Origin: Gammaproteobacteria bacterium
GTDB lineage: Bacteria; Pseudomonadota; Gammaproteobacteria; Chromatiales; Chromatiaceae
Reading direction: 5' to 3'
Assembly (NCBI GenBank): GCA_018812525.1
Contig: JAHJDE010000052.1
Coordinates: forward strand, 1-36,333
Length of the DNA stretch: 36,333 bases
The translations under genes and the position numbers were made by a program. Below are positions 7,035-26,831 of this stretch, piece after piece. Every line of letters starts with the position of its first letter. Position 1 is the stretch's first letter. Under the pieces are notes generated by a model. That model was not told the DNA's origin, made no database searches, and saw nothing but the letters and a program-made list of their open reading frames with translations.

Positions 7035-7115
7035 CTTGCAAAATGGCCATCCTGGCCATTTTGCAAGGCTCATCCCTGAACCGCGAGAGGTTCTTGCAGT
7101 TTTGCAAGAACCTCT
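7035..7115. repeat. Dispersed palindromic repeat, family A, short copy
   Basis: It starts with the palindrome TTGCAAAATGGCCATCCTGG and continues through CATCCCTGAACCGCGAGAGG to the hairpin GGTTCTTGCAGTTTTGCAAG. It matches both ends of the longer copies at 1-145 and 13650-13837 but lacks their middle palindrome. It abuts the MITE that ends at 7027. Confidence 0.8.
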
Positions 7116-7944: not shown

Positions 7945-8391
7945 ATGCCTTGGACACCCTGCACCACTGTCGCCGTCATCGCCGAGAGAGAGGGCCATTT
8001 CCTGTTCGTGCTGGAATGGGCCAGGGGGCGGCAGGTCATCAACCAGCCTGCTGGCCATCTGGAAGAAAACGAACACTTCATCCAGGCCGCCATCCGCGAG
8101 ACCCGAGAAGAGACGGCCTGGGGCTTCCGGCCCGATGGGTTGGTGGGGATCTACCGTTGGCGCATTCCCCCGCAGGGTCCGACCTATGTCCGGTACTGCT
8201 TCCATGGCCAGGTGGACGACCACCGGCCGGATCAGGCCCTGGACGAAGGGATCATTGAGGCCCTCTGGCTGACCCCGGCGGAGGTCCGTTCGGGTCATTA
8301 TCAGTTGCGCAGTCCCATGGTGCTGCGCTGCCTCGACGACCATTTGAATGGGCGGCACTTTCCCCTGGAGTTGATCAATGAGATGGACTGA
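7945..8391 (+). CDS. nudJ: Phosphatase NudJ (Nudix hydrolase)
   Basis: The 148-residue protein contains a complete Nudix box, G37-x5-E43-x7-R51-E-x2-E-E-x2-G60, within GHLEENEHFIQAAIRETREE. NudJ hydrolyses HMP-PP and nucleoside di- and triphosphates with Mg2+. The ATG at 7945 (MPWTPCTTVAVIAE) is preferred over upstream in-frame starts because those overlap rluE and extend past the family N-terminus. It lies 14 bp after rluE and upstream of mnmA, as in E. coli-type gene order. Confidence 0.92.
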   Translation: MPWTPCTTVAVIAEREGHFLFVLEWARGRQVINQPAGHLEENEHFIQAAIRETREETAWGFRPDGLVGIYRWRIPPQGPTYVRYCFHGQVDDHRPDQALDEGIIEALWLTPAEVRSGHYQLRSPMVLRCLDDHLNGRHFPLELINEMD

Positions 8392-8426
8392 CGGCCTTAC
8401 CAATAAAATCCGCAAAGCGCTCTTTT

Positions 8427-8524
8427 GCCCCCTCCCCCTCTGGGGGAGGGTTGGGGAGAGGGAACGATCAGGGGCGAGGCGGCCTTTATTCCTTTGGAGT
8501 GGCTCGCCTCGCCCCATGATCGTT
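8427..8524. repeat. Palindromic repeat, family B, copy 1
   Basis: A G-rich hairpin (GCCCCCTCCCCCTCTGGGGG...) is followed by inverted arms at 8463-8480 (AACGATCAGGGGCGAGGC) and 8506-8524 (GCCTCGCCCCATGATCGTT). A second copy with an extra nested insertion lies at 12180-12315. The right end supplies an ATG used, or usable, as start codon of the following gene. Confidence 0.8.
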
Positions 8525-9130
8525 ATGCTGATGCTCTGGCTCCCCTCCCTGGCCGGGGCCGTGGGCTTTTTCCCCGAGGATTCCCCGCGTGACTGGGCGA
8601 ATCCGCCCAAGCCGGACAAATTCACGGTCTGCTTCAACCACAGTTGCGCGGAGACGGCAACCATCGGCATCGGCGAGGCCGACTGGCAGCGGATACGGGA
8701 TCAGTTCTCGCCACCGCCCAAGGACCCGGCCGAGGAGCGCCAGCGCATCGCCAGGGCGATCGGGCTCATGGAGATCATCGTCGGGCCCGTCATTGGCACC
8801 CAGAACGACAAGAGCATGAACCTCAAGGGCGTCGGCGCCGAGGGTAACCAGCAGGACTGCATCGACGAGTCCACGAATACGACCACCTACCTGACCCTAA
8901 TGGAGCAGGATGGCCTGTTCCGCTTCCATTCAGTTCAGGAAACCTCCACGCGCGGCTGGTTCATCATGGGTCTGCCCCATACCACGGCCGTGGTGCGCGA
9001 CAAGCAGAGCAAGGTCGATTATGCCGTGGACTCCTGGTTCCACGACAACGGCGTGGAGCCCGAGATCCTCCCCGCCAAGGAGTGGTGGCACGGCTGGCAT
9101 CCCGCTGAATTCAAGCAATACAAGCCGTAG
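8516..9130 (+). CDS. Exported protein of unknown function, possible papain/transglutaminase-like fold
   Basis: A signal peptide (MIVMLMLWLPSLAGAV) precedes a mature domain of about 185 residues, so the product is probably periplasmic. No family name is recognised. Three spaced elements look like a Cys-His-Asp arrangement: QQDCIDESTNTTTYL, GLPHTTAVV and YAVDSWFHDNG. Transglutaminase-like cysteine proteins have this order, but the resemblance is pattern-based and weak. The ATG at 8516 lies inside the right arm of repeat family B; ATG at 8525 is an equally good alternative. A longer in-frame start at 8378 would translate the repeat and is unlikely. It sits between nudJ and mnmA, where a functional link is not evident. 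Confidence 0.75.
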   Translation: MIVMLMLWLPSLAGAVGFFPEDSPRDWANPPKPDKFTVCFNHSCAETATIGIGEADWQRIRDQFSPPPKDPAEERQRIARAIGLMEIIVGPVIGTQNDKSMNLKGVGAEGNQQDCIDESTNTTTYLTLMEQDGLFRFHSVQETSTRGWFIMGLPHTTAVVRDKQSKVDYAVDSWFHDNGVEPEILPAKEWWHGWHPAEFKQYKP

Positions 9131-9216: not shown

Positions 9217-9413
9217 CAACCGCGAAGGACAAACACCAAGGAAATCACTGGATTATCTCCGTCAAGGCATTCCCCTTCCGGGTAAATGGCCATGCGTTGT
9301 ACAGGCGGGTTTTGTATGGGCGGGTGTTGTACGGGCGGGTGTTGTACGGGCGGGTTTCAAACCCGCCCCTACCCTACCCTATTCCTGGCGTTCCTTTGCG
9401 TTCTTTTCGGTTG
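9217..9413. repeat. Repeat region with four 15-bp tandem units inside inverted borders
   Basis: The borders CAACCGCGAAGGAC (9217-9230) and TTCCTTTGCGTTCTTTTCGG (9391-9410) are inverted to one another and resemble the arms at 33589-33658. Inside are four tandem units TTGTACGGGCGGGTG or near variants, at 9297-9311, 9312-9326, 9327-9341 and 9342-9356, ending in a GGGCGGGTTT/AAACCCGCCC hairpin (9348-9368). The region from 9131 to 9427 otherwise holds only the mnmA leader. Confidence 0.7.
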
Positions 9414-12179: not shown

Positions 12180-12315
12180 TGCCCCCTCCCCCTCTCGGGG
12201 GAGGGTTGGGGAGGGGGAACGATCAGGCATGTCCTGAGCGGAGTCGAAGGAAGCGGAGTCGAAGGGGGCGAGACCACCTTTCATCTATCGGGGTGGGGCT
12301 CGCCCCATGATCGTT
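12180..12315. repeat. Palindromic repeat, family B, copy 2 with nested insertion
   Basis: It has the same G-rich hairpin and AACGATCA...CCCCATGATCGTT borders as the copy at 8427-8524. The left arm is interrupted by CATGTCCTGAGCGGAGTCGA and a partial duplicate. A further CCTGAGCGGAGTCGAAGG copy lies at about 12332-12350. It begins about 40 bp after the atpD stop and marks the start of foreign DNA between atpD and atpC. Confidence 0.75.
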
Positions 12316-13649: not shown

Positions 13650-13837
13650 GAGGTTCTTGCAAAACTGCAAGAACCTCTTGCGGTTCAGGGATGAACAGCC
13701 ATTTCCAATGGCCTAAGCCATTGAAAATGAAGAAAACGAAAAATCACATTTTTCCGTCCTTTGGTCCGTAAACGGTACATCCCTGTACCACTTCTCGTTT
13801 TCGTCTTGCAAAATGGTCAGGAAGGCCATTTTGCAAG
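13650..13837. repeat. Dispersed palindromic repeat, family A, inverted long copy
   Basis: This is the reverse complement of 1-145 with few differences, and complete on the side cut by the window edge there. About 40 bp (TTTGGTCCGTAAACGGTACA...) are inserted in its middle. It lies immediately upstream of the DUF4143 ATPase gene and about 130 bp before atpC. The remainder of 13587-13965 shows no gene. Confidence 0.85.
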
Positions 13838-14396: not shown

Positions 14397-14506
14397 AATG
14401 ATGCGGTTCGTGCCTCACCACATCCTACAAAAAGGCATCGCAACTGTTCAGCTCAATTCGGAAATTGCCCCCTCCCCCTTTGCAGGGGGGGGTTGGGGAG
14501 GGGGGG
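14397..14506. repeat. Two short repeats between atpC and atpQ
   Basis: ATGCGGTTCGTGCCTCACCA at about 14402 belongs to the same family as the repeats at 26480-26831. GCCCCCTCCCCCTTTGCAGG at 14468 and onward is the G-rich hairpin also found in repeat family B. They stretch the atpC-atpQ gap to 162 bp, whereas N-ATPase genes are usually tightly packed. Confidence 0.6.
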
Positions 14507-14538: not shown

Positions 14539-14808
14539 ATGAACCAGCGGAATGAACTCAGGCAACAGGTGGAACGCCAGGCCCAGCGCATGCGCAAGGC
14601 CGAACGGGAGCGGCCGACCCTGATCGGGCAGACGGTCTTCGTCGGCACCCTGGGCCTGTTGCTGGTGCTGCCGGTGGTGGGCGGGGCCTATCTGGGGCTC
14701 TGGCTCGACGGCCTCGCCCAGGGATATTCATTACGCTGGACCCTGAGCCTGATCATCCTCGGCGTCATGGTCGGCGCGGTTAACGTCTATCTGTTTATCA
14801 GGGAATGA
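14539..14808 (+). CDS. atpQ: N-ATPase accessory membrane protein AtpQ (AtpZ/AtpI-like)
   Basis: The 89-residue protein has a charged N-terminus and two membrane helices, at about 30-52 and 66-85, with the family-typical GAYLGLWLDGL loop and a VNVYLFIRE end. AtpQ/AtpZ proteins assist assembly of the c-ring or ion uptake. Downstream one expects atpR and then atpB. Instead a 6.5-kb defence island starts at the stop codon, and a second copy of the last 25 codons appears at 21317-21391. The last seven codons overlap the antisense 3' end of the res remnant, so this short stretch is read on both strands. Confidence 0.85.
   Translation: MNQRNELRQQVERQAQRMRKAERERPTLIGQTVFVGTLGLLLVLPVVGGAYLGLWLDGLAQGYSLRWTLSLIILGVMVGAVNVYLFIRE
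14734..14808. repeat. Left direct repeat: 3' end of atpQ
   Basis: These are codons 66-89 plus the stop of the intact atpQ. The distal part (CTGTTTATCAGGGAATGA) also forms the antisense end of the res remnant. It is paired with 21317-21391. Confidence 0.9.
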
Positions 14809-16190
14809 TGCCGAATGGCATCTCTGATACCGGCTGGATCGAACACGACCTCGAAGCACCACTGACCGAAGCTGCCCTGCTCGTTGACCGCCTGAATCCA
14901 GGTTTGCATGGCGGCCCGCTTGGCGCGATTTTGATCGCTGTCCTGGCCTTTCACCTCCAACACCAGCGTCTGGCCGCTATTCAGGCGAATCAGATAATCC
15001 GGGATGAAATTTCGGGACGACCCCCGATAGAGATAGCGAATCTTGAAGTCCAGATGGTCATTCTTGGCCCAAGCCAGAACCGTCGTCTCTTTCTCGCAAA
15101 GATCCGCCACAGCCTTTTCCCAAACACTGTCATACACCACATGGCTGATCTGGGATCGAGCCGTGGCCTCGCAGGGTTTGGTGGTGTACCAGGTACGCAT
15201 GCGGGCGGTGGAGCCGATGGGGTTTTCCTGATCGAAGCAAACCGCCAACCTTTCCTGGTTCTGCAACTGGACGAACCGGTTCACATGGCCGACCAGACTG
15301 TCCATATTCATGGCGATCAGGATGCGGCGGCGCACCGGGTCCTGGTGCCACAGACTTGGGATTTCGAGCCTGCCGCTGGCCAGGAAATCCTCCACCAAAC
15401 GGATGAGCTGCACAGCAAGATACTGCCTATCGCCAGAGAAGGTGTCGGCGCTTTGCAGATAGAGCTTGCGTGCGGCGCGGAAGATCAGGTTTTGCAGACG
15501 AAACTCTTCCACCGCTTTTTCCAGGTCGATCTCGCTCACCTTGGATAGATCGGCCTGACCCGCCAGCGCCGGGGCGACTTCGGCATGGATGGGCGTCTGC
15601 ATCGGGTCCAGGGTCAGAGGCTCCATGACCTCCCAATCCATGGTCAAGGTCGGCCTCAGCACCGTATCGATCCGCAGCACATTCGGCCATCGGATTTCAA
15701 ACTGATTGCGCCCCGGCACCACCTCCACCTGGATGCTCGGCTTGGGTGGGGGCGGTGGCTCTCCGCCTTCCCCCACGTCTTGGAAGATGGACAGCGGAAC
15801 GCCGAACACATTCACATATTCCGGCAGAAACAGCCCGTTCTCGTCCCGCTCGTATGAAACGCGCCGAAGGCCCCGGCCGATCACTTGCTCGCACAGCAAT
15901 TGGCTGGTGAAGGCGCGCAGGCCCATGATGTGGGTGACATTGGCGGCGTCCCAGCCCTCCGACAGCATTGCCACGGAGATGACGTTTTGCAGTCGCTGGC
16001 CCGGCTTGCCTCGCTTGCCCACGGAATCGACGATGGCGCGCAACTGCTCTTCCTGCCTGGACCGCAGCAGCGCATCACGCCTGTCTTGCGGCAATCCTGC
16101 TGCCTGGAGGATGGCCTCCAGGCGCTTGGCATAATCCCTGTCCTTGGTGATCGACTCCCCCCGTTCCGCCTTTTTCCTGTGCGGGCTGAA
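14787..16190 (-). pseudogene. res: C-terminal half of a type III restriction subunit Res (helicase N-terminus lost)
   Basis: The frame from about 16190 encodes the last roughly 468 residues of a Res-type DEAD-helicase/endonuclease. Visible are helicase motif V (VISVAMLSEGWDAANVTHIM), motif VI (EQVIGRGLRR) and a C-terminal PD-(D/E)XK nuclease (IPDYLIRLNSGQTLVLEVKG). The motif I-III helicase half, about 500 residues, is missing. The DUF4276 gene occupies its place, and the junction lies at about 16195 in a different frame. Family-like sequence is readable up to FSPHRKKAERGESITKD, before any plausible start; the first usable start is TTG at 16094. Restriction activity is therefore unlikely. The 3' end overlaps atpQ antisense. 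Confidence 0.8.
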
Positions 16191-17957: not shown

Positions 17958-20900
17958 TTACTCCAGTGGAATAACCTTCAGTGATTCAATCCCCCTGTCA
18001 TCCACGATCTTAACCGCGATACAGCGGTTATTGCCCGGCATGAAGGGTATCGAGACCGTGCCGTGGAATTGGGCCAGAAGCACCTCGTTCAGCTCGGCGC
18101 GGATATCCCGCTTCAGCTTGTTCCAGCCCTCCTTGGCCCCGGCCATGGGGAAGAATACCTGCTGGGGAAACAGCGAACGGTTGTCGTAGTCCGTATCCAA
18201 CGCCCACATCGCAATCTGTTTCTTGCCGCCGGACCTCAGTTCACCGCTGCTGGTGTCGAAATAATCGAAGCCGTGGACCTCGACTTCATAGCGGCCATCG
18301 GGCAGATGCCGCAACTCCACGTCCGGCTGGCCCATCAGCCAGAAAGACTGATTACCGGCGCGGGCCTTCTTCAAATCTTCTGTGAGCAGATCGGTATTCA
18401 TCTGCACCTTCAGGGCGGTGATGCCCTTGATGTTATCGATGTCCTTCGCCGCTTCCGGGTCGAAGGTGAAGGCGCAAAACACCAGCATCTTGGGTAGCGG
18501 GAACAGCTCGCCCGCCTCTCGCATGGCGATCTCCACCTGACGCTGCTCCAACGCGGCGTGTTCGGGGCCGAAGCTCACAGCGACCCGCTGGCTCGATTCG
18601 GCAACCGTGCCTACCGCGTGGATGTACCTGGCGCCCGGCAAAGGTTCCAGGTCGATCAGTTTCAACATCTGGCCCGCCTTGCCGCGGATACCGGTCTTCA
18701 GCAGTTCGTCGCGCCATTGCGCCTGGCGCGAGGTCACCCCGGAACGGGCCACCGCCACGTCGGCCTCGAAACCCATACTACCTTCCCCGTCGTGATTGGG
18801 TTCCAGGGCCAGCACCGTGGGGAAAGGCACCGCCTCCACCGTGAAAGGGCCTGTGATGCGCAGCTTGGTCTTCGATTTTTCCGCCTGGTCGAAGAGGGTT
18901 TCCTGATCTGCGTGGGCGGCGATGGAGGCGTCCATCTGCCTTTGCATGGCTTGGCGCGCCGCGTGGAAGGCATCGAACGGGGCGCGGGCGGATTCGGGCC
19001 AGTTGGGCGGAAAATCGAAAGGAACCTCCCATTCCTGTAAGGGCGAATTCATTCGCCCTTGGGCGGCTGAAGCCGCCCCTACAAGTGATTCGTTCAGGTC
19101 GGCCAGCGTCTTTTCAATGGCCGGATGCAACCGCTCGTAAATCTCGTCGATCTCGGGATTGTTGGCGATGGATTTCAGCGTGACGTGGGGCACGGTCTTA
19201 TAGATGAAACCGCCGCGCAGCCCCTCCTGGGGATATTTCAGCTCGTAATAGTCGTAGCCGGCGGTGAGCAGCCGCTGCTTGGCCAGAGTAACGGCGACAC
19301 GGGAGGTATCGCAGGTGATCCAGCGCCGGCCCCATTTCTCGGCAACGAAGGCGGTGGTGCCGGAACCGCAGGTGGGATCGAGCACCAGGTCGCAGGGGTC
19401 GGTGGTCATCAAAAGGCAGCGTTCGACGATGTTGGCGTTGGTTTGAACAACGTAAACCTTCTTGTCTGAAAACCCAGAAGTAACCGTATCAGTCCAGAGG
19501 TTGGAGTAGGGAAAGACTGGGAAATCGTCTATATAGCGCACGTAGCACAGTGTCTTGCCGACCAAATCAAGTCGCCCTGAACGCGCAAGCAACCGCATAC
19601 CTGATTCACCAGTTTTCCAATATCCATTAGCTGGCCGAATTTGTTTTCCAAATACTTCAACAGGGAAGTCGCCGGGCGGTCGCTGGCTAGTCATATTGTC
19701 AAGGCGAAAGACCCTTGTCCCTTCTGCTGCCTCTGTTAGCGCCTTCTCCACATCTGGAACACGAATACGCTGCCCATCTGGGTATCGTAGTGACGAGTAC
19801 TGTCCACCTCCTGCACCACCTATCTCCTTGTCCTTAAAAAGCTGACGGTATTTCACCTTATCACTATCTCTGGCATACCAGACAAGGTAGTCGGATACGC
19901 CAGCCAATAGTTCGCTCGTCGCGCTACTTGTTTTCGCGACAGTAATCAGGCTGACAAAATTGCCCGCGCCAAACACCTCATCCATCACCTCCCGCACATG
20001 GTGCAAATTCTCATCCGAAATCTGCACAAACACACTGCCCGACTCGATCAACAACTCCTTCGCCAGCAGCAAACGGTCGCGCAGATAGGTCAGGTAGGAA
20101 TGGATGCCCAATTCCCAGGTATCGCGGAAGGCCTTGATCATCTCCGGTTCCTGGGTCAGGTCCTCGTCCTTGCGGTCCTTCACATCGCGCTTGTGGGTGA
20201 AGGGCTGGAAGTTGGAGCCGTATTTGATGCCGTAGGGCGGGTCGATGTAGATCATCTGCACCTGACCGGCCATGCCTTCCTTTTGCAGCAGGGAGTTCAT
20301 CACCAGCAGCGAGTCGCCGGAGATCAGGCGGTTGGCCCAGTCGCGTTCGTGCTTGTAGAAGTCGATAGCATCACGTAGCGGCAGATTTTCGAAGGGGGCG
20401 GAAAAAAGATCGGGCTGGAAGGTACCACCTCCCCTCACCCCTGCCCCTCTCCCGCTTGCGGGAGAGGGGTTCTTTAACTGCTTTTGCAGGGCGGCGAGGA
20501 TGGTGGCGGGGTCGATGCGCTCATGAACGTGCAGGGAAACGGTGTCCACCTCGAAGCTGGTGCGCTCGGCCTTGCCACTCCAGTTGAGGTAGGGGGCCTG
20601 CATGCGCTTCAACTGTTCCAAGGTGGCGCGCATCTGGGCCGGGTCGCCGGACGCCAGGGCATCGTCGATCAGGTTTTCGATGCCGGCCCGGCCGGAATCG
20701 AACTGCAAGGCCGGGTCGATATGGGGATCGTAGGCCCAGCGGGTCTCATTCTCGACCCCGTCGCTGGTGGTATCCACCATGCCCACATGGGGGTTGTTCT
20801 TGCGCTTGTCGCCGTGGCGGTAGGAAAGGACTTGGCTCGGCTGGTTGGCAGTACCTCGCGGGGTGGTCTCCTTTGCCTTGCGAGGCCTCGATGCCTCTGG

Positions 20901-21185
20901 GGCAGGCCTCTCCTGATGCTCCAGCGTAAATGGCTCATCGTCGGCCTCCTCTTCCTTATCCGTCTGGCCAATCAGGTAAACCGAGCCCCCGCGGCCTTTG
21001 CCACGGCCCAGGATTTCTTCGGCAATCAGACTTTCGCGCAAGGCATCGAACGCTTCTTGGGCAATCTCCCGCCCCAGGACCGTCTCCATGGCAGCCCGTA
21101 ACCGCTGATTCCCCGCCATTCCGCCAAGCGCCTCCAGTTGCGCGATCAATGTGCTGCGTAATGAATCCTCGACGTTGTTGTCCAT
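17958..21185 (-). CDS. mod: Type III DNA methyltransferase Mod (adenine-specific, beta class)
   Basis: This 1075-residue site-specific methyltransferase has the catalytic DPPY in MIYIDPPYGIKYG (315-318) and the SAM-binding DPTCGSGT at 603-610. This order, DPPY before FxGxG, is that of beta-class N6-adenine enzymes, including type III Mod. A target-recognition region lies between them, and long N- and C-terminal extensions are typical of large Mod proteins paired with BPTD_3080-like Res. Two palindromic repeats are inserted in frame, giving residues 238-254 and 702-716, outside both motif blocks. ATG at 21185 follows a TGGGGTA ribosome-binding-like stretch. With res truncated it may act as an orphan methylase. 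Confidence 0.9.
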   Translation of the reverse strand: MDNNVEDSLRSTLIAQLEALGGMAGNQRLRAAMETVLGREIAQEAFDALRESLIAEEILGRGKGRGGSVYLIGQTDKEEEADDEPFTLEHQERPAPEASRPRKAKETTPRGTANQPSQVLSYRHGDKRKNNPHVGMVDTTSDGVENETRWAYDPHIDPALQFDSGRAGIENLIDDALASGDPAQMRATLEQLKRMQAPYLNWSGKAERTSFEVDTVSLHVHERIDPATILAALQKQLKNPSPASGRGAGVRGGGTFQPDLFSAPFENLPLRDAIDFYKHERDWANRLISGDSLLVMNSLLQKEGMAGQVQMIYIDPPYGIKYGSNFQPFTHKRDVKDRKDEDLTQEPEMIKAFRDTWELGIHSYLTYLRDRLLLAKELLIESGSVFVQISDENLHHVREVMDEVFGAGNFVSLITVAKTSSATSELLAGVSDYLVWYARDSDKVKYRQLFKDKEIGGAGGGQYSSLRYPDGQRIRVPDVEKALTEAAEGTRVFRLDNMTSQRPPGDFPVEVFGKQIRPANGYWKTGESGMRLLARSGRLDLVGKTLCYVRYIDDFPVFPYSNLWTDTVTSGFSDKKVYVVQTNANIVERCLLMTTDPCDLVLDPTCGSGTTAFVAEKWGRRWITCDTSRVAVTLAKQRLLTAGYDYYELKYPQEGLRGGFIYKTVPHVTLKSIANNPEIDEIYERLHPAIEKTLADLNESLVGAASAAQGRMNSPLQEWEVPFDFPPNWPESARAPFDAFHAARQAMQRQMDASIAAHADQETLFDQAEKSKTKLRITGPFTVEAVPFPTVLALEPNHDGEGSMGFEADVAVARSGVTSRQAQWRDELLKTGIRGKAGQMLKLIDLEPLPGARYIHAVGTVAESSQRVAVSFGPEHAALEQRQVEIAMREAGELFPLPKMLVFCAFTFDPEAAKDIDNIKGITALKVQMNTDLLTEDLKKARAGNQSFWLMGQPDVELRHLPDGRYEVEVHGFDYFDTSSGELRSGGKKQIAMWALDTDYDNRSLFPQQVFFPMAGAKEGWNKLKRDIRAELNEVLLAQFHGTVSIPFMPGNNRCIAVKIVDDRGIESLKVIPLE
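19038..19082. repeat. 45-bp double-hairpin repeat inserted in frame in mod
   Basis: Two adjacent perfect hairpins, AAGGGCGAAT/ATTCGCCCTT (19039-19060) and GGGCGGCT/AGCCGCCC (19061-19078), make up an element starting GTAAGGGCG and ending CCCCTAC. Its 15 codons are read in mod as VGAASAAQGRMNSPL, residues 702-716. The length is a multiple of three, so the frame is kept. Confidence 0.8.
20424..20474. repeat. 51-bp hairpin repeat inserted in frame in mod
   Basis: A perfect 12-bp stem, CCCCTCTCCCGC (20444-20455) and GCGGGAGAGGGG (20458-20469), is embedded in CCCTCACCCCTGCCCCTCTC. It is read in mod as KNPSPASGRGAGVRGGG, residues 238-254, low-complexity sequence unlike its surroundings. It is related to the G-rich hairpins at 8427, 12180 and 14468. 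The reading frame is preserved. Confidence 0.8.
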
Positions 21186-21316: not shown

Positions 21317-21391
21317 CGCTGGACCCTGAGCCTGATCATCCTCGGCGTCATGGTCGGCGCGGTAAACGTCTATCTTTTTATTAGAGAATAG
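21317..21391 (+). repeat. Right direct repeat: displaced 3' fragment of atpQ
   Basis: This second copy encodes the last 24 residues of AtpQ with a TAG stop. An ATG at 21314 is in frame, so a 25-residue single-helix peptide (MRWTLSLIILGVMVGAVNVY...) could be made, but no ribosome binding site is seen. It keeps the native downstream context, with atpB 68 bp further on. Confidence 0.85.
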
Positions 21392-26272: not shown

Positions 26273-26479
26273 CTACGGGCTGTTAATCCTGTCAAAAACA
26301 GGTCGGCAACCTGATCGGCGCGGGGCCCCTTCCCGTTGATTACCCGGTCTTTCCCGCATCCCCTATCCCATCGATCCAGGTCTCCCTCAGCAAGATGAAT
26401 GCCACCGCTCCCGGATTTCCGCTACGGCTCTGTTAAGCCGGCTTCCTTGTGATCTGTTGCCGCATCGTCAGCGTAGGCT

Positions 26480-26831
26480 GAGCGGTAGCGAACCGCATCG
26501 TTCGCGAGACCACATCCGTCCCTGATCGGTGCGGTTCGTACCTCACCGCACCCTACGGGCTCTGCGTCGCAGTAGGGACGCCGGTTACCCGGCACCCCCT
26601 GCACAAATCCCGGTGTGCAATTTTCCCGCACCGGGTTCCTAAGTTATGCTCACTCTCGATAGTAGGATGCCGGTGAGCGGTAGCGAACCGCATCGTTCGC
26701 GAGACCACATCCGTCCCTGATCGGTGCGGTTCGTACCTCACCGCACCCTACGGGCTCTCAACGCTCTTATCCCACTCATCGAACAGGTTAGTCGAATAGC
26801 CCGTAGGGTACGGTGAGGCACGAACCGCACC
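26480..26831. repeat. Exact 84-bp direct repeat plus inverted partial copy
   Basis: 26480-26563 and 26675-26758 are identical over 84 bp, starting GAGCGGTAGCGAACCGCATC and ending CGCACCCTACGGGCTCT. An inverted part (AGCCCGTAGGGTACGGTGAG...) lies at 26798-26831, just before the mshE stop. A diverged relative is at about 14402. Each unit contains GCGGTAGCGAACCGC and GGTGCGGTTCG palindromic pieces. The 685-bp space between mshE and the upstream-coordinate gene holds nothing else. Confidence 0.9.

Follow-up and report, generated by a model that had tools for sequence, protein, structure and literature searches.

Two described families of palindromic repeats stand closest to the elements considered here. 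Triplex-motif (TM) repeats have long been known in hundreds of proteobacterial genomes, including E. coli K-12, and the route by which they spread is not known. The TM_ECO pattern, CCCTCNCCC N3-6 GGGNGAGGG N3 GGGNGAGGG, has 3610 occurrences across 262 proteobacterial genomes (Holder et al., 2015; PMC4666352), and according to the available part of that paper, remnants of transposases or integrases were never found around the E. coli motif, nor were mobility genes near it. The other family consists of REPs. Intragenic REPs are described, in the accessible text of Di Nocera et al. (2013; PMC3733652), in Xanthomonas, Stenotrophomonas and others, and recB of two Xanthomonas species has an insertion at roughly the same position; in P. 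putida and C. koseri, most REPs at gene starts are suspected to be non-coding. An earlier note on the DNA analysed here had called coding insertions of palindromes rarely noted in gammaproteobacteria, a statement at odds with the REPs inside genes described there. In-frame insertion, as already published in the available text of PMC3733652, is therefore not the new part of what follows. The new part is a pairing: TMs have a gene partner, DUF559 (PF04480, a Vsr-like nuclease). No link of DUF559 to palindromes or triplexes was found in the open-licence literature searched.

Two unrelated palindromic elements in one mod gene

The window, that is, the whole stretch of 36,333 nucleotides analysed, comes from a Chromatiaceae genome of 3.5 Mb in 215 contigs. 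Its relevant features are as follows.

17958-21185, minus strand: mod, N6-adenine DNA methyltransferase of a type III-like restriction-modification system, 1075 aa (PF01555 at aa 309-636; solved-structure matches)
19036-19083, minus strand: block 1, a 48-bp inverted pair of GTAG-type REP hairpins, in frame, coding for VGAASAAQGRMNSPL (aa 702-716)
19061-19078, minus strand: block 1 hairpin GGGCGGCTTCAGCCGCCC; its exact stem is single-copy in the genome
19041-19058, minus strand: block 1 hairpin GGGCGAATGAATTCGCCC; its stem occurs at 6 genome places
20424-20474, minus strand: block 2, an element classed by pattern as a triplex motif (TM/PIT type), in frame, coding for KNPSPASGRGAGVRGGG (aa 238-254)
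20444-20469, minus strand: block 2 palindrome CCCCTCTCCCGCAAGCGGGAGAGGGG, pyrimidine arm and purine arm
20431-20441, minus strand: block 2 purine third-strand tract GGGGTGAGGGG, read directly from the sequence of this strand
12184-12205, no strand: palindrome of the same pyrimidine/purine class, CCCTCCCCCTCTCGGGGGAGGG, between listed ORFs
8430-8450, no strand: palindrome of the same class near the start of ORF 8378-9130
14465-14503, no strand: imperfect relative of the block 2 repeat
9333-9372, minus strand: GTAGGGGCGGGTTTGAAACCCGCCC element, of the genome's main GTAG family

The top matches of the window Mod among solved structures are the type III Mod subunits 6k0w and 4zcf. Block 1 is a pair of inverted hairpins laid out over 48 bp as TGTAGGGGCGGCTTCAGCCGCCC-AA-GGGCGAATGAATTCGCCCTTACA, with a GTAG tag at one end (GTAGGGGCGGCTTCAGCCGCCC) and GTAA at the opposite end; GTAG-tagged short palindromes, often in paired hairpins, are likewise what the accessible text of Di Nocera et al. 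(2013; PMC3733652) describes as GTAG REPs. Block 2 belongs to an unrelated family. Its 9-nt arms, CCCCTCTCCC and GGGAGAGGGG, enclose the 6-nt loop GCAAGC, as in the TM_ECO/PIT palindrome, and are followed by the third strand, these parts together coding for most of the block 2 peptide. A pyrimidine arm, a loop of 3-6 nt, a purine arm, a short loop and a purine third strand are common to block 2 and TM_ECO/PIT as the available part of PMC4666352 presents it. The two differ in that the E. coli motif is described there as always intergenic, whereas block 2 lies inside a gene, and in that the third strand of block 2, GGGTGAGGG, follows a 4-nt loop, whereas the published pattern has GGGNGAGGG after 3 nt. 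Folded as single-stranded DNA, blocks 1 and 2 have z values of -6.1 and -4.2, and for each, 0 of 200 dinucleotide shuffles was as stable.

The earlier note had read two different palindromic repeats in frame inside mod. Both repeats are real and both are in frame in the 1075-aa ORF; what that reading missed is that they are distinct kinds of element, one of them with a nuclease gene as partner. It gave block 2 an extent, 20424-20474, that does hold the palindrome and the third strand, but the block 1 element is slightly wider than the 19038-19082 proposed, at 48 nt (19036-19083). It was right to place both outside the catalytic motifs: the N6_N4_Mtase Pfam match (aa 309-636) excludes both, block 2 lying N-terminal and block 1 C-terminal to it. 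In-frame landings without stops are common, because the block 2 element is open in 5 of 6 frames and the block 1 element in 4 of 6. An AlphaFold model of Mod (30 sequences; mean pLDDT 52, pTM 0.28) is too poor to rely on; in this model, site 1 would be a coil after helix 677-700. The encoded block peptides were not found in the literature search.

Direct repeats of 73 bp (95%), at 14734-14806 and 21317-21389, bracket a block of mod, AAA, DUF4276 and res-fragment genes that sits inside an F1F0 ATPase operon resembling the alternate type, as if a restriction-modification island had been inserted in the ATPase operon with a long target duplication. The restriction subunit (BPTD_3080 family, 14787-16094) has its C-terminal half only, matching positions 546-969 of a 970-aa model, with an AAA ATPase gene and a weakly DUF4276-like gene in place of the N-terminal half. 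Because its Res gene is only this C-terminal fragment, the window Mod may be under weak selection. Another repeat family, at 35-139, 7070-7114 and 13650-13754, consists of long copies in inverted orientation (105 nt, 97%) that include a strong AGAGGTTCTTGCA hairpin, and identical 85-bp direct repeats lie at 26479-26563 and 26674-26758, their starts 195 bp apart.

Both blocks have relatives elsewhere in the source genome. The block 2 palindrome, CCTCTCCC..GGGAGAGG, occurs at 28 places (reversed-pattern control, 0), and the block 1 hairpin GGGCGAAT at 6 (control, 0); the GTAGGGGCG family of block 1 has 119 strand matches genome-wide (47 + 72), against 10 (4 + 6) for its control. The 28 places of the block 2 palindrome represent 27 distinct copies, 24 with a purine third strand and 3 without. 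The whole-genome search for hairpins inside genes that the earlier note had called for, run for this palindrome, placed 9 of the 27 distinct copies inside 8 recognisable genes: mod, ClpB, RecD, a sensor histidine kinase, a Complex I-like subunit, CbiG, HsdS and HsdM (two copies); for the remaining 18, the ORF calls from coding scores are rough. At the palindrome site ClpB has 30 residues, compared with 5 in E. coli ClpB. In hsdM (L113:484-1884, contig C148 of the genome), frame shifts lie between the two triplex-type palindromes, by decay or assembly. A RAYT (Y1) gene flanked by block 1 repeats was sought and not found: the GTAGGGGCG element is absent from flanks of up to 1.5 kb at the genome's 7 Y1 loci (one shortened by a contig end), and no GTAG element stands beside these genes.

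Scattered insertions at the same Mod linkers

Mod homologues were gathered by a scan of named genomes. Among the best 80 of 165 relatives, 72 span the linker that holds block 2 and 78 the linker that holds block 1. TM elements are present at the block 2 linker in 4 of the 72 (L038, L054, L084 and L094), and recognisable repeat palindromes, of three families, at the block 1 linker in 8 of the 78. Most homologues therefore have neither block, as an alignment had been expected to show, and the view that palindromes of intergenic type occupy non-catalytic linkers here is supported by the comparison.

The block 1 linker is the more varied of the two. L081 has a GTAG pair of the same design as the window element, with GTAG at both ends. 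L032, L041 and L038 have in-frame elements with ATTCCCGC..GCGGGAAT; those of L032 and L041 share a CGTC tag, an 8-bp stem and a CCA tail with the CGTC-1/dRS3 REPs in the accessible text of PMC3733652, a family other than that of either window block. In L054, L084, L092 and L094 the palindromes are of TM type, some of them imperfect, and a perfect-stem scan found further palindromes of this type in L054 (about aa 806 and 864) and L084 (about 864 and 962). L073 probably has a GTAG-tagged hairpin repeat at this linker, judging from its sequence, and L093 a probable repeat that we take to be of the CTGAGCGTATCGAAGGG type. Stem length was discarded as a detector at site 1, where ordinary homologues reach 9-12 bp with one mismatch; because it does not separate repeats from ordinary sequence, site 1 repeats were identified by reading the DNA, and the stems of at least 9 bp in L030 and L055 were not counted. 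The Aromatoleum mod (L091:2917-7692) is broken into two frames, the second of which has a 21-bp perfect inverted repeat close to its start.

On a Mod tree of 80 rows, built by a quick method with the insert columns left out, the five block 2 carriers (window included) take 5 changes, at least 3 of them forced by well-supported branches, and a single clade of the five is rejected (p-AU 4.5e-7). The 11 block 1 carriers, with the probable ones and the window included, take 9 changes. Since carriers are scattered, the Mod linkers have been targeted repeatedly, either through insertion or through transfer of pieces. The earlier note had named distant Mods with the same peptide blocks as the finding that would make the blocks ordinary protein sequence. 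Similar blocks do occur in some distant homologues, but with other palindrome families at the same spot or with the same family scattered over the tree, and the blocks are therefore repeated insertions.

DUF559 genes and triplex motifs

The Mod of M. capsulatus (L084) has about 360 extra residues at the block 1 linker, made up of many TM-type palindromes and a whole DUF559 domain, and DUF559 was therefore taken up as a candidate partner. Across 94 DUF559 loci (24 from hand-picked genomes, plus the 70 with the highest scores among the rest of the phylum, with three weak or duplicate rows dropped), a TM-class palindrome lies within 200 bp of the gene at 83, on both sides at 47, and 11 have none. 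Control genes had none within this distance (0/102, comprising 0/60 Mod, 0/6 Y1 and 0/36 other methyltransferase loci). Because many of the control-gene genomes are TM-poor, flanks beyond 600 bp in the same loci are the fairer control. The exact CTCTCCC family reaches 3.14/kb at 0-150 bp from DUF559, 0.2-0.6/kb at 150-600 bp and at most 0.11/kb beyond; it is found within 150 bp at 51 of the 94 loci (both sides, 28), and variant pyrimidine/purine palindromes are present at most of the 43 remaining loci.

The motifs beside DUF559 are oriented. Their third strands point inward in 86 cases and outward in 13, with 35 lacking an assigned direction. Among 49 two-sided loci, 23 have motifs inverted and facing inward, as inverted terminal repeats surround the enzyme gene of a transposable element, none has them facing outward, 9 have both in the same direction and 17 are unassigned. 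The arm class of the TM is also common to nearest DUF559 homologues of less than 80% identity in 52 of 85 cases (shuffled mean 28, maximum of 500 shuffles 41); below 60% identity this fades to 38 of 85, inside the shuffled range. The consensus of 85 DUF559 sequences conserves DF...ElDGgQH, residues of PD-(D/E)XK nuclease type which we take to be catalytic, and one DUF559 of the source genome matches 3hrl, 'Endonuclease-Like Protein', at E 7e-30.

DUF559 and palindrome load also go together across genomes. In 24 hand-picked genomes, DUF559 was present in 11/11 with at least 12 palindromes vs 1/13 with 8 or fewer; E. coli gave no match in the DUF559 control run of this comparison, despite its ycjD. 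In an even sample of the phylum (398 genomes), a strong DUF559 match, defined as E <=1e-20 by a cut-off chosen after the list had been inspected, was present in 67 of the 79 genomes with at least 10 palindrome copies vs 37 of the 319 others (odds ratio 42), and in 10 of 251 genomes without an exact palindrome. The 12 palindrome-rich genomes without a strong match include 4 with a weak one, and when every PF04480 match is counted the figures become 71/79 vs 74/319. The link holds within families (pooled odds ratio about 37, z 6.5; 12 informative families), and when 3 palindromes are deducted for each DUF559 match, the odds ratio is still 21. One genome with a variant palindrome had only 2 copies of the variant in a 400-kb sample. 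A Y1 (RAYT-type) transposase was considered as partner of the block 2 palindrome and rejected, being present in 35 of the 79 palindrome-rich vs 178 of the 319 other genomes.

Cassettes of DUF559 with palindromes also lie in frame in otherwise continuous genes, namely Mod, HsdM, HsdS and an amidotransferase. In the HsdM of L252, 159 residues including palindromes and DUF559 fall between residues 496 and 505 of 3khk, and in the amidotransferase of L249, 246 residues fall between residues 90 and 94 of 7ylz. An HsdS-like ORF of the source genome has DUF559 after Methylase_S, flanked by one perfect and one degenerate palindrome; what follows this cassette was recognised as HsdS by eye only. By Pfam, DUF559 interrupts CbiG (cobalamin synthesis) at the mid/C boundary in L230 and L231, and CbiG looks likewise split in L233 and L275 from a reading of the ORFs only. 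Where the CbiG of L230 and L231 holds DUF559, that of the source genome holds a lone palindrome, and the second palindrome of its HsdM, of TM type, lies at the linker matching the full cassette of L252. HsdM and CbiG thus each have a linker occupied by a lone palindrome in the source genome and by a complete cassette elsewhere, and single TMs may be left over from cassettes or arise as their by-products.

E. coli K-12 has a DUF559 gene of its own, ycjD, with matches in 3365 of 5426 complete E. coli genomes. The published TM no. 9 of MG1655 (1351204-1351239) is 168 bp from it, and a decayed TM-like tract overlaps its 3' end. Strain L323 has a 106-bp deletion relative to L319:3360-3465, which takes away this tract at the 3' end of ycjD and leaves TM no. 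9 in place. The fabI-ycjD-sapF interval was dropped as an empty/filled pair, as the two strains inspected whose match is confined to the surroundings of fabI have other genes there; no close pair of this kind was found.

Explanations for the blocks and relation to known systems

The explanation that we favour as a whole, and consider somewhat more likely than not, is that two unrelated palindromic families were inserted independently in permissive linkers of Mod, where the blocks would have been kept as in-frame, largely stop-free and tolerated additions. The TM family would be spread by a small element, an endonuclease gene of DUF559 (Vsr-like, PD-(D/E)XK) between inward TMs. The nuclease may cut at or near TM DNA in the form of a hairpin, cruciform or triplex; repair copying after the cut would then seed whole cassettes and, far more often, single TMs as by-products, and copies landing in frame in loops would survive, restriction-modification genes included. 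The bolder proposal, which we advance tentatively as having not quite an even chance, is that DUF559 and TMs together make up a minimal mobile element of a new class, in which inward triplex ends enclose a Vsr-like endonuclease gene. Such an element would spread lone TMs across proteobacterial genomes, would account for the origin of PIT/TM repeats, and would insert in frame in protein linkers, repeatedly in those of methyltransferase and specificity subunits, the window mod among them.

A simpler reading is that selfish repeats are plainly tolerated: REP-like elements insert in frame in flexible linkers, and DUF559 is a passenger that homes into TM pairs already there. In-frame REPs are published (PMC3733652, available text), E. 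coli has five inverted TM pairs that could be empty sites (PMC4666352, available text), and most TMs of the source genome are not beside DUF559. A passenger would not be expected to come with more TMs elsewhere, unless TM-rich genomes merely offer more homes, but palindrome load tracks DUF559 within families and after removal of the flanking copies, and we regard this reading as rather unlikely. Alternatively, the TMs could be regulatory or terminator parts of DUF559 and other genes, with the linkage an expression feature. Hairpins can serve as terminators, and the position within 150 bp of DUF559 would suit such a role. Against it, the motifs are as frequent upstream as downstream and face inward there too (upstream, 45 inward and 7 outward), the cassettes sit inside host reading frames, and no promoter or terminator activity of TMs was seen in earlier work, as cited in the accessible part of PMC4666352; we consider it very unlikely.

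The remaining alternative, that the blocks were part of the ancestral Mod as ordinary sequence and have disappeared from other lineages, draws on the five Mods with a similar block 2, four of which have like flanks (KN; GAGVR in at least three). The letters in common are mostly the TM itself, however, and site 1 holds at least three unrelated palindrome families. The scatter of carriers (5 changes, at least 3 forced) argues against common descent, and for block 2 the AU test rules it out, so that we give this reading hardly any credence.

A tightly linked, conserved nuclease gene is a concrete candidate for the spread of TMs, testable in laboratory E. coli, and the link hints at what DUF559, among the many families without an assigned function, may do. 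By writing new peptide segments into conserved proteins at repeated positions, the element also provides a natural experiment on insertion tolerance.

Several known systems resemble parts of this picture. The palindromic elements of Rickettsia (RPE), in the available text of PMC10969869, are likewise inserted in frame in many proteins; they are about 150 bp long, and no sequence kinship with the window blocks is claimed. VsrA of Caulobacter also has a DUF559 domain of the PD-(D/E)XK superfamily; it was studied as a mismatch-repair endonuclease, and the string 'palindrom' does not occur in the accessible portion of that text (PMC12907096). In organisation, the DUF559-TM cassette resembles the REPtron, a REP-RAYT unit (PMC3733652). 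The two differ in enzyme, the REPtron having a Y1 transposase and the cassette a nuclease of PD-(D/E)XK type, with Y1 unlinked to palindrome load here. They are alike in that, as the accessible text describes the REPtron, a gene is flanked by its own repeats while many lone repeats lie elsewhere, some of them within genes.
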